Below are positions 47,653-52,210 of a stretch of 64,000 nt of DNA, one piece after another. Made by a program: the position numbers and the translations under genes. This stretch comes from Nitrospirota bacterium. GTDB lineage: Bacteria > Nitrospirota > Thermodesulfovibrionia > Thermodesulfovibrionales > SM23-35. The stretch lies in assembly GCA_014859105.1 (NCBI GenBank), contig JACUUX010000001.1, positions 1 through 64,000 of the forward strand. Reading direction: 5' to 3'. The notes below the pieces were generated by a model. The model did not search any database. It saw only the letters and a program-made list of their open reading frames with translations, and was not told the DNA's origin. Position 1 is the stretch's first letter. The number at the start of each line of letters is the position of its first letter.

Positions 47653-48093
47653 GTGAAGAATCAATATCGTCGAACTCCTGTTTTCAGTGATAAAATAACT
47701 TATCTTGTTTTAAACCCTTATTGGCATATTCCTCCCAAAATTGCTGTACAAGATAAATTGCCATTGATACAAAAAAATCCCGACTATTTAGAGAAAGAGA
47801 AAATAAGAGTTTTTCAGGGTTGGGGAGCAGAGTCAAAGGAAATAGATCCAAAATCCGTTAATTGGTCTCAGGTAACAGAGAAGAGTTTTCCTTACAGATT
47901 AAGGCAAGAACCTGGTTCTCATAATGCACTGGGTCGTATAAAATTCATGTTTCCCAATAAATATAACGTGTACCTTCATGATACACCATCAAAGGAACTT
48001 TTTTTAAAAACAGAACGAACTTTAAGTTCAGGGTGCATACGCATTGAAAAACCTATCGAACTCGCTGAATATCTATATACAATTTATAAATAA
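47653..48093 (+). CDS. C-terminal catalytic part of a YcbB-type L,D-transpeptidase
   Basis: A 146-residue protein covering the YkuD catalytic domain of LdtD/YcbB: RRTPVFSDKITYLVLNPYW, GWGAESKEIDP, FPYRLRQEPGSHNALGRIKF and the active-site HDTP...SSGCIRIEKP. Family members are about 550-600 residues with a peptidoglycan-binding and scaffold domain before this. Here nothing of that precedes the GTG at 47653, and there is no signal peptide. It is probably a 5'-truncated gene, though the catalytic residues are intact. mepK follows, as ycbK follows ycbB in E. coli. Confidence 0.85.
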   Translation: MKNQYRRTPVFSDKITYLVLNPYWHIPPKIAVQDKLPLIQKNPDYLEKEKIRVFQGWGAESKEIDPKSVNWSQVTEKSFPYRLRQEPGSHNALGRIKFMFPNKYNVYLHDTPSKELFLKTERTLSSGCIRIEKPIELAEYLYTIYK

Positions 48094-48170
48094 AATTCTT
48101 GATTAATTCTGTAAATTTTACTGAGAAGCTAATATTTGCTAAACTTTAAACAAATGGAGGATAACAGCCT

Positions 48171-48707
48171 ATGATATCACGGAGGAAATTTTTAAAGATT
48201 TTTGCTCTTATCGCAGCTTATTTACCTCTTCAGATTAAATATACATTCGCAATAACTAAAAATAATAAAACCGAAAGAATCCTTAATCTTTATAACATTC
48301 ACACAGATGAAAAACTTAACATAAAATATTATCATTCTGGTATCTATGATCATGATGCTATTGATAAGATCAATTATATATTAAGGTGCCACTATACTGA
48401 TGAAATAAAGCCTATAAATCTTAAAGTTATCGACCTTTTGTGTGATATTAAGGACAGAGTTGGCAAAGAAAAAGAAGTTTATATAATATCGGGATATCGT
48501 TCATCATTATATAATGATTATTTAAAGAACACGGGTAGAAACGTTGCAAAAAACAGTCTCCATTTGTATGGTCTTGCAATAGATTTCTCAATTCCAGGTA
48601 TTTACAATAATAAACTTTTTCAGATCGCAAAATCATTTCGTGCAGGAGGGGTCGGAAAGTATACAGAATTTATTCATATTGATATTGGATCTGTAAGGTA
48701 TTGGTAA
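48171..48707 (+). CDS. mepK: MepK-like (YcbK, DUF882) murein endopeptidase
   Basis: A 178-residue exported protein with a Tat-like start MISRRKFLKIFALIAAYLPL. The M15/DUF882 zinc-peptidase core shows YIISGYRSSLYNDYL, SLHLYGLAIDFSIPG and EFIHIDIGSVRYW, giving the H...D...H zinc set. MepK of E. coli cleaves the 3-3 cross-links that L,D-transpeptidases make. AAATGGAGG stands 9 bases before the ATG. Its partner L,D-transpeptidase fragment is 77 bases upstream. Confidence 0.88.
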   Translation: MISRRKFLKIFALIAAYLPLQIKYTFAITKNNKTERILNLYNIHTDEKLNIKYYHSGIYDHDAIDKINYILRCHYTDEIKPINLKVIDLLCDIKDRVGKEKEVYIISGYRSSLYNDYLKNTGRNVAKNSLHLYGLAIDFSIPGIYNNKLFQIAKSFRAGGVGKYTEFIHIDIGSVRYW

Positions 48708-49177
48708 ACAATTACAAACAAATAATATAAACTCGGGACAGAAGCCGGTTTATTTTGAATATATGTTTTTGGATTTGAAGTCAAGCTCTTCTGCCATTTA
48801 TATTGTGCCCAACATTATTTTTTATGCAACTCATGCTATTTGTTAAAACAATAATACTTTCAGGTGCTTCCGTGATGGTATTTAGTCCGTAATATCAGGA
48901 AATGCCATTTTAAAATAAATATTACATCGATTTAATTCACTTTTGTTTTCGCAAGTTGCTGCTGATATGCTAATATTTCGCTCATAGGTAAGAAAACGCC
49001 CGGAGTGTATAATATATTGTTATTTTGAAAATATCAGCCATACTTGGTATATATTATTGAATTGCACGTTATTGCTCTTGCGATGGAATTGAGCCTTGCG
49101 CATCAATACGATCAAGTGCTTTACTGAAAAATGGTTTATTAAATTTTCTTCATTAAAAAAAGGACCTTATTTGTCTC
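48708..49177. other. 470-base gap with no recognised gene
   Basis: AT-rich, no open frame with coding character, no strong hairpin and no clear promoter. It separates the mepK pair from the LysM L,D-transpeptidase and marks a change to more GC-rich DNA. Confidence 0.5.
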
Positions 49178-50497
49178 ATGTGCCGAACTATTGACCTGTT
49201 ACCCTTATCCAATAGGCTTCATCTTATAGTTCTATTAATATTCATCTTATCTTTGCATGGCTGTGCGGGTATGAAAAGAGTCGTGGTGGAACCCCTGCCC
49301 CCTCCAGGCTATCTGGAAGAAGATATCGAACGAAATGACTTTCTGGCTGAAAAAGAAGATGATGTCATTGGCCGGTTGGCGTTTATCAGGCTTGAAAAGG
49401 GAGATACGCTACCGGATATTGCAAGACACTTCAGTCTGGGAATCAATGCAATCAGTGCGGCAAATCCAGGTGTAGATGTATGGGTGCCTGAGGCCGGAGA
49501 GCGTATCCTGTTGCCTCTGAGTTTTATCCTGCCGGATGTTCCTAGAAAAGGCATTGTGATCAACTTAGCCGCAATGAGGCTCTTTCAATTTAAAGGTGAT
49601 AGTAAGTCACAGGTGGTGTCGACCTACCCGGTCGGTATCGGTACTGCAGAGCGACCCACGCCCACAGGTCAAATGCATGTGGAGCGCAAGGTAATCCGGC
49701 CGACCTGGTATGTGCCTGCCTCAATTGCTGAGGATTATCGAAAAAAAGGAGATCCTCTGCCCGCTGAAGTTCCGCCGGGACCTAAAAATCCCTTGGGAGA
49801 ATACGCGATATATTTAAGTAAGCCGAGTTATTTGATCCATGGTACAAATAAGCCGTCCAGCATTGGCCTCAGGGCAACCAATGGCTGTATAAGACTCTAT
49901 CCGGAAGACATAAAGAGGCTCTTCGAAAGCACCCCGGTTAAAACACCTGTATGCATTGTTAACCAGCCATATCTTGTAGGTCAACGTGATGGAGTAGTTT
50001 ACATGAAAGTTCATACGCCTTTTGAAGACTCGGGCAGTGTTGAGCTGGAGAAGATATATGCAAAATTGAGAAATATTGAAAAGAAATTGGGGTGCACGCT
50101 CGACTGGAGCAAAGTTAAGAAAGTATTGGCCGAGGCCCGGGGGATTCCTGTTCCCATATTCGAGATCCGTCAAGGAAGTGAAAAGGGGATTGCGGAAACC
50201 GTTGAGGTCAAGCACCCGGATAAATTGTACGGCAGACCGGAAATACTAGAACTGAAAGCGGACGCTTGGTATGTTTTGGCTGCTAACGTGCGTGACAGGA
50301 TTGATGCTCTGAGGATTGCCGCCATTATAAACCACCAGGGTCCACAAATTCCGGCAAGGGTGTTATCAATGAGCGACAGCCACCGTGTTATCGCTGGCCC
50401 TTTCAATGATATAAGCGAGGCCAAAGATGCAGTAAAACGCTTGAAAATTGATTTGGAAATAGACGGTATATTGGTTGAACCTGTCAAGGAGAGATAG
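49178..50497 (+). CDS. L,D-transpeptidase lipoprotein with LysM and SPOR-like ends
   Basis: A 439-residue lipoprotein. The signal ends in the lipobox LHGC (Cys29). A LysM domain (about 68-112, FIRLEKGDTLPDIARHF) is followed by a YkuD domain (about 122-270) with HGTNKPSSIGLRATNGCIRL at the active site. A C-terminal SPOR-like domain covers about 358-435 (WYVLAANVRDRIDALRIAAI). The family (ErfK/YbiS-like) cross-links peptidoglycan or attaches Lpp to it. Context with an Lpp-like gene 240 bases downstream favours lipoprotein attachment. Confidence 0.88.
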   Translation: MCRTIDLLPLSNRLHLIVLLIFILSLHGCAGMKRVVVEPLPPPGYLEEDIERNDFLAEKEDDVIGRLAFIRLEKGDTLPDIARHFSLGINAISAANPGVDVWVPEAGERILLPLSFILPDVPRKGIVINLAAMRLFQFKGDSKSQVVSTYPVGIGTAERPTPTGQMHVERKVIRPTWYVPASIAEDYRKKGDPLPAEVPPGPKNPLGEYAIYLSKPSYLIHGTNKPSSIGLRATNGCIRLYPEDIKRLFESTPVKTPVCIVNQPYLVGQRDGVVYMKVHTPFEDSGSVELEKIYAKLRNIEKKLGCTLDWSKVKKVLAEARGIPVPIFEIRQGSEKGIAETVEVKHPDKLYGRPEILELKADAWYVLAANVRDRIDALRIAAIINHQGPQIPARVLSMSDSHRVIAGPFNDISEAKDAVKRLKIDLEIDGILVEPVKER

Positions 50498-50620
50498 CTG
50501 ATTGTGCCTTTTTTGATGCATGGAATATCATACACTGTTTTGTTTGCCCGAATTCGTCAGACGTTGTTTCATTCTTAAATTTTCATGAAATATCATATAG
50601 TTATTCAAAATATCCCTTTC

Positions 50621-50636
50621 TGGCATGTTACTTGCG
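50621..50636 (+). promoter_or_regulatory. Candidate sigma-54 promoter of the Lpp-like gene
   Basis: TGGCATGTTACTTGCG has GG and GC separated by 10 bases, with the conserved TGGCA and TTGC halves. Transcription should start near 50647, leaving a leader of about 90 bases before the lipoprotein ATG. The palindrome TTTCATGAAA at 50581-50590 lies where a nearby regulator might bind. Confidence 0.65.
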
Positions 50637-50693
50637 AAATACAAGTCGGTTCAAGTAAAAAACTTTAAACTTTAGGATCGGAGGAAACCTGTC

Positions 50694-50813
50694 ATGAGGA
50701 AGATTGGTAAACTGGACAGAAAGGAGGTGTTTAAAGATGAAGAAGAGTCTTTTGATGATCTCAATGATGCTTGTTCTCGCTATTGCCGTGTGGGGTTGTG
50801 CAACAAAAGGTGA
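50694..50813 (+). other. 39-codon overlapping leader ORF
   Basis: ATG 50694 stands 8 bases after GGAGG and opens a 39-codon frame (MRKIGKLDRKEVFKDEEESF...) that runs past the Lpp-like start in another frame. Its translation could modulate initiation at 50737. It may be chance; the signal is the good ribosome site. Confidence 0.35.
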
Positions 50814-51060
50814 CCTTGCGCGAGTGGAGACGCAGGAAAAACTGATTGGTGCTAAAGCTGATCAGGCAGCTCAGGATGCGCAGGCTGCCAAGGCGGCAGC
50901 CGATGCGGCCACGTTAAAGGCAAATGAAGCCGCAGCCCGCGTTGAAGATGCTATAAAGAGGGCAGAGGAAAGGGAGAGGATCGCGGAGGAAAAGGCGAAG
51001 ATCGCAGATGAAAAGGCAAAACAGGCTGAAGACGTTTTCCAGAAATCAATGAAGAAATAA
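50737..51060 (+). CDS. Lpp-like alanine-zipper lipoprotein
   Basis: A 107-residue lipoprotein. The signal ends in the lipobox VWGC (Cys21). The mature part is one continuous helix rich in alanine at heptad positions (ADQAAQDAQAAKAAADAATL), then charged (ERERIAEEKAKIADEKAKQA), and ends in two lysines (KSMKK). Braun-type Lpp has the same plan with a C-terminal Lys bound to peptidoglycan by an L,D-transpeptidase. It is about twice the length of E. coli Lpp. The AAGGAGGTG ribosome site is ideal. Confidence 0.82.
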   Translation: MKKSLLMISMMLVLAIAVWGCATKGDLARVETQEKLIGAKADQAAQDAQAAKAAADAATLKANEAAARVEDAIKRAEERERIAEEKAKIADEKAKQAEDVFQKSMKK

Positions 51061-51106
51061 ATCAATCTTATGGGAACCGTTAACTTCACCTTTAGTGCTC
51101 CGTAAA

Positions 51107-51140
51107 GGAAGTGGAAGGGTTTGAAGACCCTTCCACTTCC
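51107..51140 (+). terminator. Strong stem-loop after the Lpp-like gene
   Basis: ggaagtggaagggt-ttgaag-acccttccacttcc is a perfect 14-bp stem with a 6-base loop. Only a short T-rich tail follows (tcatattt). It probably terminates or protects the abundant lipoprotein mRNA. Confidence 0.7.
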
Positions 51141-51160
51141 TCATATTTCCACAGCTTAAT

Positions 51161-52210
51161 ATGGTACATATTTCGGACATATCAGGAATACGACCGGTTT
51201 TGCAATCATCAAACATATTATTAACAAACACGAAGGCGTATGCGGATAAAAAGCAGAGCAAGTTAGGTGAGCATCTTTACTTTTTCCTTGTCTGCATCAT
51301 TATAACACCAATTCTCATATGCGGATGCAGTCATTCCAGAGCAATCTTCAAAGAAGCGAATGATTTTTTCAGCCAGGGAAACTACAAGGCATCTCTGAGC
51401 AAATATGAGCAGATTATTGAGAAATATCCCGCAAAGGTAGACAGGGTTCTTTTCGAGATGGGTATTATTTATGCGTATCCCCGGAATGAGCAAAAAGATT
51501 ATCAGAAATCTCTGGAATGTTTTCAGAAACTCATAAAGGATTTCCCGGAGAGTCAGTACAGGCAGGACAGTGAGATGATGATATTTCAAATCCATAATGT
51601 CACTATCAAGGATAAGACGATTGCTGCGCAGCAAACACAGATTGAGACTTTCCAGCAACAGGTTAAGAGCAAAGTGGATGAGATTATTACACTGCAAAAA
51701 GAGATTGAAGCGCTTAAACAACAGGTTAAGAGCAAAGAGAATGAGATTGTTACACTAAAAAAAGAGATTTTTGCAAGCCAGAATGGACCGGCAGATAAGA
51801 TTCTGATAGAAAAGAAAGAACGACGATTGACGTTGTTCTCAAAGGGCAAGGTGCTCAAGACCTACAAAATAGCCCTGGGGGGAAACCCGGATGGTCCAAA
51901 AGAAAGGCAAGGCGATAACAAAACCCCGGAGGGAACCTACGTTATCGATTCAAGAAACAAGGACAGCCGTCATCACATATCTCTTCATATTTCCTATCCA
52001 AATGAGAAAGACAAAAAGCGAGCAAAAGAACTTGGTGTTTCTCCGGGCGGAGACATCATGATCCACGGCATTAAGAATGGTTTCTCGTGGGCTGGTGATT
52101 TTCACACAAGGGTTGACTGGACGAAAGGATGTATTGCCGTTACAGACGAAGAAATAGAGGAAATTAATAGCTTGGTGCCAAATGGTACGATTGTTGAGAT
52201 AAGGCCATAG
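51161..52210 (+). CDS. YafK/YkuD-type L,D-transpeptidase lipoprotein with coiled coil
   Basis: A 349-residue frame. A hydrophobic run at about 40-56 ends in ICGC, a lipobox-like site, so the real start may be later than the first ATG. TPR-like helices (about 62-120) are followed by a heptad coiled coil (about 138-195) with the repeated unit QQVKSK..EI.TL.KEI. A YkuD/YafK catalytic domain (about 205-349) has IMIHGIKNG and the nucleophile in WTKGCIAVTDEE. The active-site H and C are intact. It is the third L,D-transpeptidase-type gene within 4.6 kb. Confidence 0.85.
   Translation: MVHISDISGIRPVLQSSNILLTNTKAYADKKQSKLGEHLYFFLVCIIITPILICGCSHSRAIFKEANDFFSQGNYKASLSKYEQIIEKYPAKVDRVLFEMGIIYAYPRNEQKDYQKSLECFQKLIKDFPESQYRQDSEMMIFQIHNVTIKDKTIAAQQTQIETFQQQVKSKVDEIITLQKEIEALKQQVKSKENEIVTLKKEIFASQNGPADKILIEKKERRLTLFSKGKVLKTYKIALGGNPDGPKERQGDNKTPEGTYVIDSRNKDSRHHISLHISYPNEKDKKRAKELGVSPGGDIMIHGIKNGFSWAGDFHTRVDWTKGCIAVTDEEIEEINSLVPNGTIVEIRP

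Follow-up and report, generated by a model that had tools for sequence, protein, structure and literature searches.

The closest described relative of the locus reported here is the Lpp system of E. coli, in which a helical outer-membrane lipoprotein with a C-terminal Lys is served by YkuD transpeptidases that carry an Arg in their catalytic motif (LdtA, LdtB and LdtC) and by a YkuD hydrolase that carries an Ala there, DpaA (LdtF/YafK). Ala or Asn rather than Arg two positions past the catalytic Cys is the residue that discriminates DpaA (PMC8263019). In E. coli these genes are not clustered: lpp and ldtE stand tail-to-tail, and dpaA and ldtA-C are elsewhere. A survey saw Lpp (PF04728) in some Gammaproteobacteria and in no other group, and did not settle what DpaA-like enzymes do in the Deltaproteobacteria that lack Lpp (PMC8263019).

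We have analysed a stretch of 64,000 nucleotides from a Nitrospirota bacterium (positions 1 to 64,000 of contig JACUUX010000001.1, hereafter the window), in which the counterparts of these three proteins are encoded in one cassette. From sequence comparisons we consider it likely that this cassette, at 49178-52210, encodes a portable and reversible covalent tether of the Braun type, with its own writer and its own eraser. It would work like the E. coli system, the family membership of its proteins being mixed. Several features set it apart from that system: a SPOR domain and a lipobox in the writer, a lipoprotein with a long arm as the eraser, a tether of 69-108 residues compared with 58 in E. 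coli Lpp, and a 3' hairpin after the lpp gene. A literature search found no published paper on this three-gene set.

An ldtD relic and mepK beside the cassette

A sequence-only reading of 47653-52210 had described five genes there as a cluster for peptidoglycan 3-3 cross-links. By Pfam and NCBIfam profile searches, all five open reading frames are indeed present at these positions, on the forward strand, and what had been named a YcbB-type catalytic domain is a truncated relic. In the whole genome there are five YkuD matches; three of them lie in these 4.6 kb, and the clustering is therefore not due to chance. The five genes are nevertheless two unrelated things, a pair formed by the ldtD relic and mepK, and the three-gene tether unit at 49178-52210.

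The ycbB/ldtD relic (47653-48093, outside the cassette) is a YkuD fragment whose alignment with E. coli LdtD (615 residues) is confined to residues 407-541 of the latter; it covers about 141 of the approximately 560 residues of intact relatives and is truncated at both ends. Its frame comes after an in-frame TGA and is devoid of signal peptide, N-terminal part and C-terminal part, so that it is not the complete exported protein with an N-terminal domain by which LdtD/YcbB is recognised. No upstream remnant of the N-terminal part was detected by tblastn, and no intact YcbB was found in the window's genome. The next gene, at 48171-48707, is a neighbour of the cassette and is complete; it encodes a MepK-like L,D-endopeptidase with a Tat-like signal, which matches PF05951 with 139.9 bits (cut-off 27) and the NF053624 equivalog model with 155.1 bits (cut-off 185).

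The gene order of this pair is the same as that of E. coli ldtD-mepK; in the window, by contrast, what is left of ldtD is a fragment, and the pair merely stands beside the cassette. The GC content of the relic/mepK stretch is 29-34%, versus 41-50% in the three tether genes. Among 81 related genomes, the mepK gene adjoins a YkuD gene in 12 of the 20 cases where it is present, and has an alanine-zipper lipoprotein gene at 10 kb or less in one of the 20 genomes that carry it, the window's own. The AT-rich ldtD-mepK pair is a unit separate from the cassette, which it adjoins by happenstance. With ldtD reduced to a relic and mepK unlinked elsewhere, we reject the 3-3 cross-link cluster; the YafK-type gene of the region, moreover, carries DpaA-type (tether-cleaving) residues and not those of a transpeptidase.

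Distribution of the cassette and of a second lpp-ldt system

The conserved unit is 49178-52210, composed of the genes for an L,D-transpeptidase (the writer), an alanine-zipper lipoprotein (the tether) and a DpaA/YafK-like lipoprotein (the eraser). Loci were collected by a contig scan with the YafK-type protein and by genome searches with the lipoprotein. All three genes stand together in 44 distinct loci, a biased count since the contig scan was seeded with a single gene, through two short peptide patterns, and favours near relatives. The linkage among relatives that the sequence-only reading had anticipated thus holds for its last three genes and fails for MepK. The carriers are Nitrospirota and genomes labelled Geobacter, Pelobacter, Desulfobacteraceae, Syntrophus and other 'Deltaproteobacteria' (Desulfobacterota-type), nearly all of them uncultured and most from related subsurface and sediment lineages. 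The isolate Geobacter sp. OR-1 (L087) is one cultured carrier. One of these genomes (locus L094, genome G405, 2.2 Mb, possibly incomplete) has only two YkuD genes, both of which are cassette members.

The commonest order is writer-tether-eraser. We also observed the order eraser-writer-tether in four loci (L075, L082, L092 and L100) and tether-eraser-writer in one (L091, where the match to the tether is weak). No flanking gene is common to more than four cassette loci. A writer tree built with a quick method implies four changes of label between the two phylum groups, of which three are forced by starred branches. In addition, when the Geobacteraceae were sampled, the lipoprotein was present in 4 of 13 genomes and the whole cassette in all four of them. 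Taken together, the unshared neighbours, the mixing of phyla on the writer tree and the intact cassettes of the Geobacteraceae lead us to conclude that the cassette behaves as a portable unit. It is self-contained and shows signs of transfer between distant phyla, as judged from these comparisons. In a plasmid collection we found only relatives of the L,D-transpeptidase below 60% identity, and no record covers 80% of the writer.

The three-gene order could also reflect the shared ancestry of a local neighbourhood instead of a functional unit, in keeping with the origin of most loci in related subsurface and sediment lineages and with a scan seeded by one gene. Permuted orders, unshared flanks, mixed phylum labels on the tree and the coevolving lengths described below speak against this explanation, which they largely refute and which we regard as extremely improbable.

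A second type of alanine-zipper lipoprotein occurs in the same bacterial order. It is encoded tail-to-tail with an L,D-transpeptidase in 41 of 59 hits, the others being in same-strand cassettes (4) or alone (14), and none being divergent. These convergent pairs are present in the window's genome (G000:C118, locus L046) and in 40 further genomes, and almost every lipoprotein copy read has a final Lys. The window's genome has both systems, with tethers of 87 (G000:C42) and 105 residues (G000:C118). As in the cassette, an alanine-zipper lipoprotein with a final Lys is encoded beside an ErfK-type L,D-transpeptidase. Unlike the cassette genes, the two genes are arranged tail-to-tail, like E. coli lpp-ldtE, and have no eraser alongside; their transpeptidase is shorter (about 300 residues) and forms a clade separate from the cassette writers, and their lipoprotein typically ends in QQKK, compared with SMKK for the cassette tether.

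Two further observations concern YkuD genes. A free-standing YafK-type protein with GCIA (G000:C48:126463-126864, L047) might serve the other tether as its eraser. The loci G039:C87, G048:C92 and G013:C126, and G008:C52 and G017:C77, carry YkuD genes in tandem (about 366 and 210 residues) or, in two of the genomes, both YkuD matches within one open frame of 583 residues.

Predicted roles of the three proteins

The writer (49178-50497, forward strand) is an L,D-transpeptidase of the ErfK/YbiS/YcfS/YnhG type by Pfam and NCBIfam, and a predicted outer-membrane lipoprotein with LysM, YkuD and SPOR domains and a lipobox LHGC followed by Ala at position +2. Its YkuD match reaches 83.9 bits (cut-off 23.4) and its LysM match 17.3 bits, below the cut-off of 20.9. 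It matches PRK10190 (2.7e-54) and the LdtE model (7.8e-54). The catalytic motif of the window's copy is HGT...NGCIRL, and the transpeptidase Arg is kept in all 39 cassettes compared, within the motif NGC[IML]R. Its identity to E. coli LdtA, LdtB and LdtC is 35-39%, and about as much to LdtE. On a tree of the transpeptidases the sequences group by system and not by activity, with LdtA/B/C (tether) and LdtE (3-3) inseparable by sequence here. The structure predicted by AlphaFold for the writer is poor (pLDDT 46). The writers of loci L067, L068 and L070 have about 545 residues, roughly 100 more than other cassette writers.

The tether (50737-51060, forward strand, starting at the ATG at 50737) is an alanine-zipper lipoprotein of the Lpp/OprI type. 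In the window it has a mature helix of 87 residues and ends in FQKSMKK, the final Lys being the candidate residue for attachment to the wall. Like the OprI/alanine-zipper lipoproteins it scores above both curated cut-offs (56.1 bits versus 43 for NF040598 and 34.8 versus 23.1 for PF11839). It differs from them in being longer, heptad-stepped, found in Nitrospirota and Desulfobacterota and genetically linked to a writer and an eraser of its own. When four tethers were scanned, all four matched PF11839 and none matched the Braun Lpp family PF04728 at E values up to 1. A Cys-Ala pair at the lipobox and a C-terminal Lys are present in all 46 distinct cassette lipoproteins (43 plus three further), even though the penultimate residue is variable (K, R, L or M). 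The sequence-only reading had proposed a tether from wall to outer membrane with an Lpp-like lipoprotein that can be attached to the wall, and both this invariant Lys and the linkage of the three genes support that part of it. A protein of Geobacter sulfurreducens annotated as 'murein lipoprotein', GSU0182, is affected by csrA and ihf mutations (PMC11934962, PMC7962754).

The eraser (51161-52210, forward strand) is a DpaA/YafK-like lipoprotein made of a TPR part, a coiled-coil arm and a YkuD domain. Translation probably starts further downstream than the listed ATG; a lipobox, ICGC, lies at residues 53-56. The best NCBIfam model for this protein is LdtF/DpaA/YafK. Against the DpaA equivalog model NF040599 the window protein scores 47.7 bits, far under the cut-off of 365; all 30 aligned members match the DpaA model significantly (best E value 1.2e-13). 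GCIA replaces GCIR in 41 of 41 readable sequences, and the DpaA positions K83 (42/42), Q86 (41/42), Y109 (40/42) and M133 (41/42) are kept. K83, Y109 and Y131 are substrate residues of DpaA, the mutants Y131A and Y109A retaining 4% and 0.7% of the activity, respectively (PMC10653827). The window's eraser has a His at position 109 and, for this reason, this particular copy may be weak. In the predicted structure the TPR and catalytic parts are separated by one uninterrupted helix of about 75 residues (134-208, good local confidence). A fold search returned generic YkuD matches only, mostly with an rmsd of 5-10 Å, the catalytic domain being too uncertain to discriminate between them.

Since a lipobox is present in all three cassette proteins, the residue at position +2 being Ala or Ser in most cases, their anchoring in the outer membrane is likely. 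In the mechanism that we propose, the writer would join the side chain of the tether's C-terminal Lys to the meso-diaminopimelate of peptidoglycan tripeptides. This attachment would hold the outer membrane one helix length from the wall (87 residues, about 13 nm if fully helical). The eraser, anchored in the outer membrane, would reach the wall on a coiled-coil arm length-matched to the tether, and would hydrolyse the same Lys-meso-diaminopimelate bond that the writer makes.

The third gene might instead encode an L,D-carboxypeptidase of the Csd6/Pgp2/Bd1075 type, trimming tetrapeptides and not cleaving a tether as an amidase. Such enzymes are related, are also without the Arg and conserve the Lys equivalent to K83 (PMC8263019, PMC10653827). 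The eraser also matches Bd1075 (7O21) weakly by sequence, and Tyr131 of DpaA is found in none of 42 erasers, which have Asp or Asn instead. We nonetheless hold this explanation to be unlikely: the best YkuD structure for the eraser by sequence is 8IKR, that of DpaA; the position where carboxypeptidases have a specific Trp is Met in 41 of 42 erasers, as in DpaA; and trimming of tetrapeptides gives no reason for the linkage with lpp or for the covariation between arm and tether lengths. Alternatively, the writer could make 3-3 cross-links like LdtD or LdtE, the lipoprotein being a free, non-covalent coiled coil and the cassette a set for wall remodelling. The similarity of the writer to E. coli LdtE, about as high as to LdtA-C, and the presence of the ldtD relic and mepK next door are in its favour. 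It is quite unlikely, however, given a C-terminal Lys that is invariant next to a variable residue, the lack of linkage of the relic and mepK to the cassette elsewhere, and a pairing of lpp with an L,D-transpeptidase that recurs independently in the convergent pairs.

If the interpretation as a covalent tether served by the writer and eraser of its cassette is correct, covalent outer-membrane tethering would be far wider than thought and would move between phyla as a cassette. The cassette loci would put a likely substrate and its writer right beside the DpaA-like enzyme of the Lpp-less Deltaproteobacteria, the subject of the question raised previously (PMC8263019). Their tethers of different natural lengths, each with its matched enzymes, would also allow tests of how the width of the periplasm is set and reset.

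Tether and arm lengths, and the hairpin behind lpp

The mature tether and the eraser arm vary in length mostly by heptads, and 39 of 43 tethers are in one heptad phase (80, 87, 94, 101 or 108 residues). The two lengths are correlated over 45 loci (Spearman 0.64, Pearson 0.67), in an exploratory test conceived after viewing the data. With independent contrasts on the writer tree, the correlation is 0.59 (n = 40, permutation p = 2e-4), and 0.58 in a rebuilt run; it is 0.55 when the extreme loci are removed and 0.52 without the Geobacter-type group. The control segments (TPR, catalytic domain, and the LysM-to-Cys and Cys-to-SPOR segments of the writer) hardly vary and do not covary. The linker between the lipobox and LysM of the writer gave a contrast correlation of 0.54 and no clear raw one. 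We give even chances to the idea that the cassette carries its own periplasmic ruler, in which the eraser would measure the tether with an arm coevolving in heptad steps, and which could reset the spacing between membrane and wall in a new host.

A sigma-54-like site, TGGCATGTTACTTGCG, is present upstream of the window's lpp (about 50621-50636, score 16.1 of 18.9) and missing from most other cassettes. It is the sole sign of the stress induction that had been suggested for the region, and we do not retain this suggestion.

Behind lpp, at 51107-51140 on the forward strand, there is a hairpin with a 14-bp stem and the loop TTGAAG (wider model match 51060-51155). Such a hairpin is found in most cassettes, the great majority beginning about 35-55 nt past the stop codon. 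In the alignment of 13 pairs, 95.5% of the cells are paired and 8 of the 13 pairs have double-sided changes, a level that none of 500 shuffles attained. We ruled out a scattered repeat: of 396 genomes searched with a covariance model, 12 had matches of more than 45 bits, all of which fall at a cassette lpp, and a strict pattern was found at lpp only (seven genomes). An Rfam search with the hairpin gave two sub-threshold matches and no family. In the permuted loci L075, L082, L092 and L100 the hairpin keeps with lpp and not with the eraser, and it is therefore part of the lpp message. Most copies have no T-run downstream. The hairpin probably ends or stabilises the lpp message, with a terminator-like or message-stabilising role, and the tether would then be made in excess of the eraser encoded downstream. 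It is also possible that the hairpin is the source of a small RNA.
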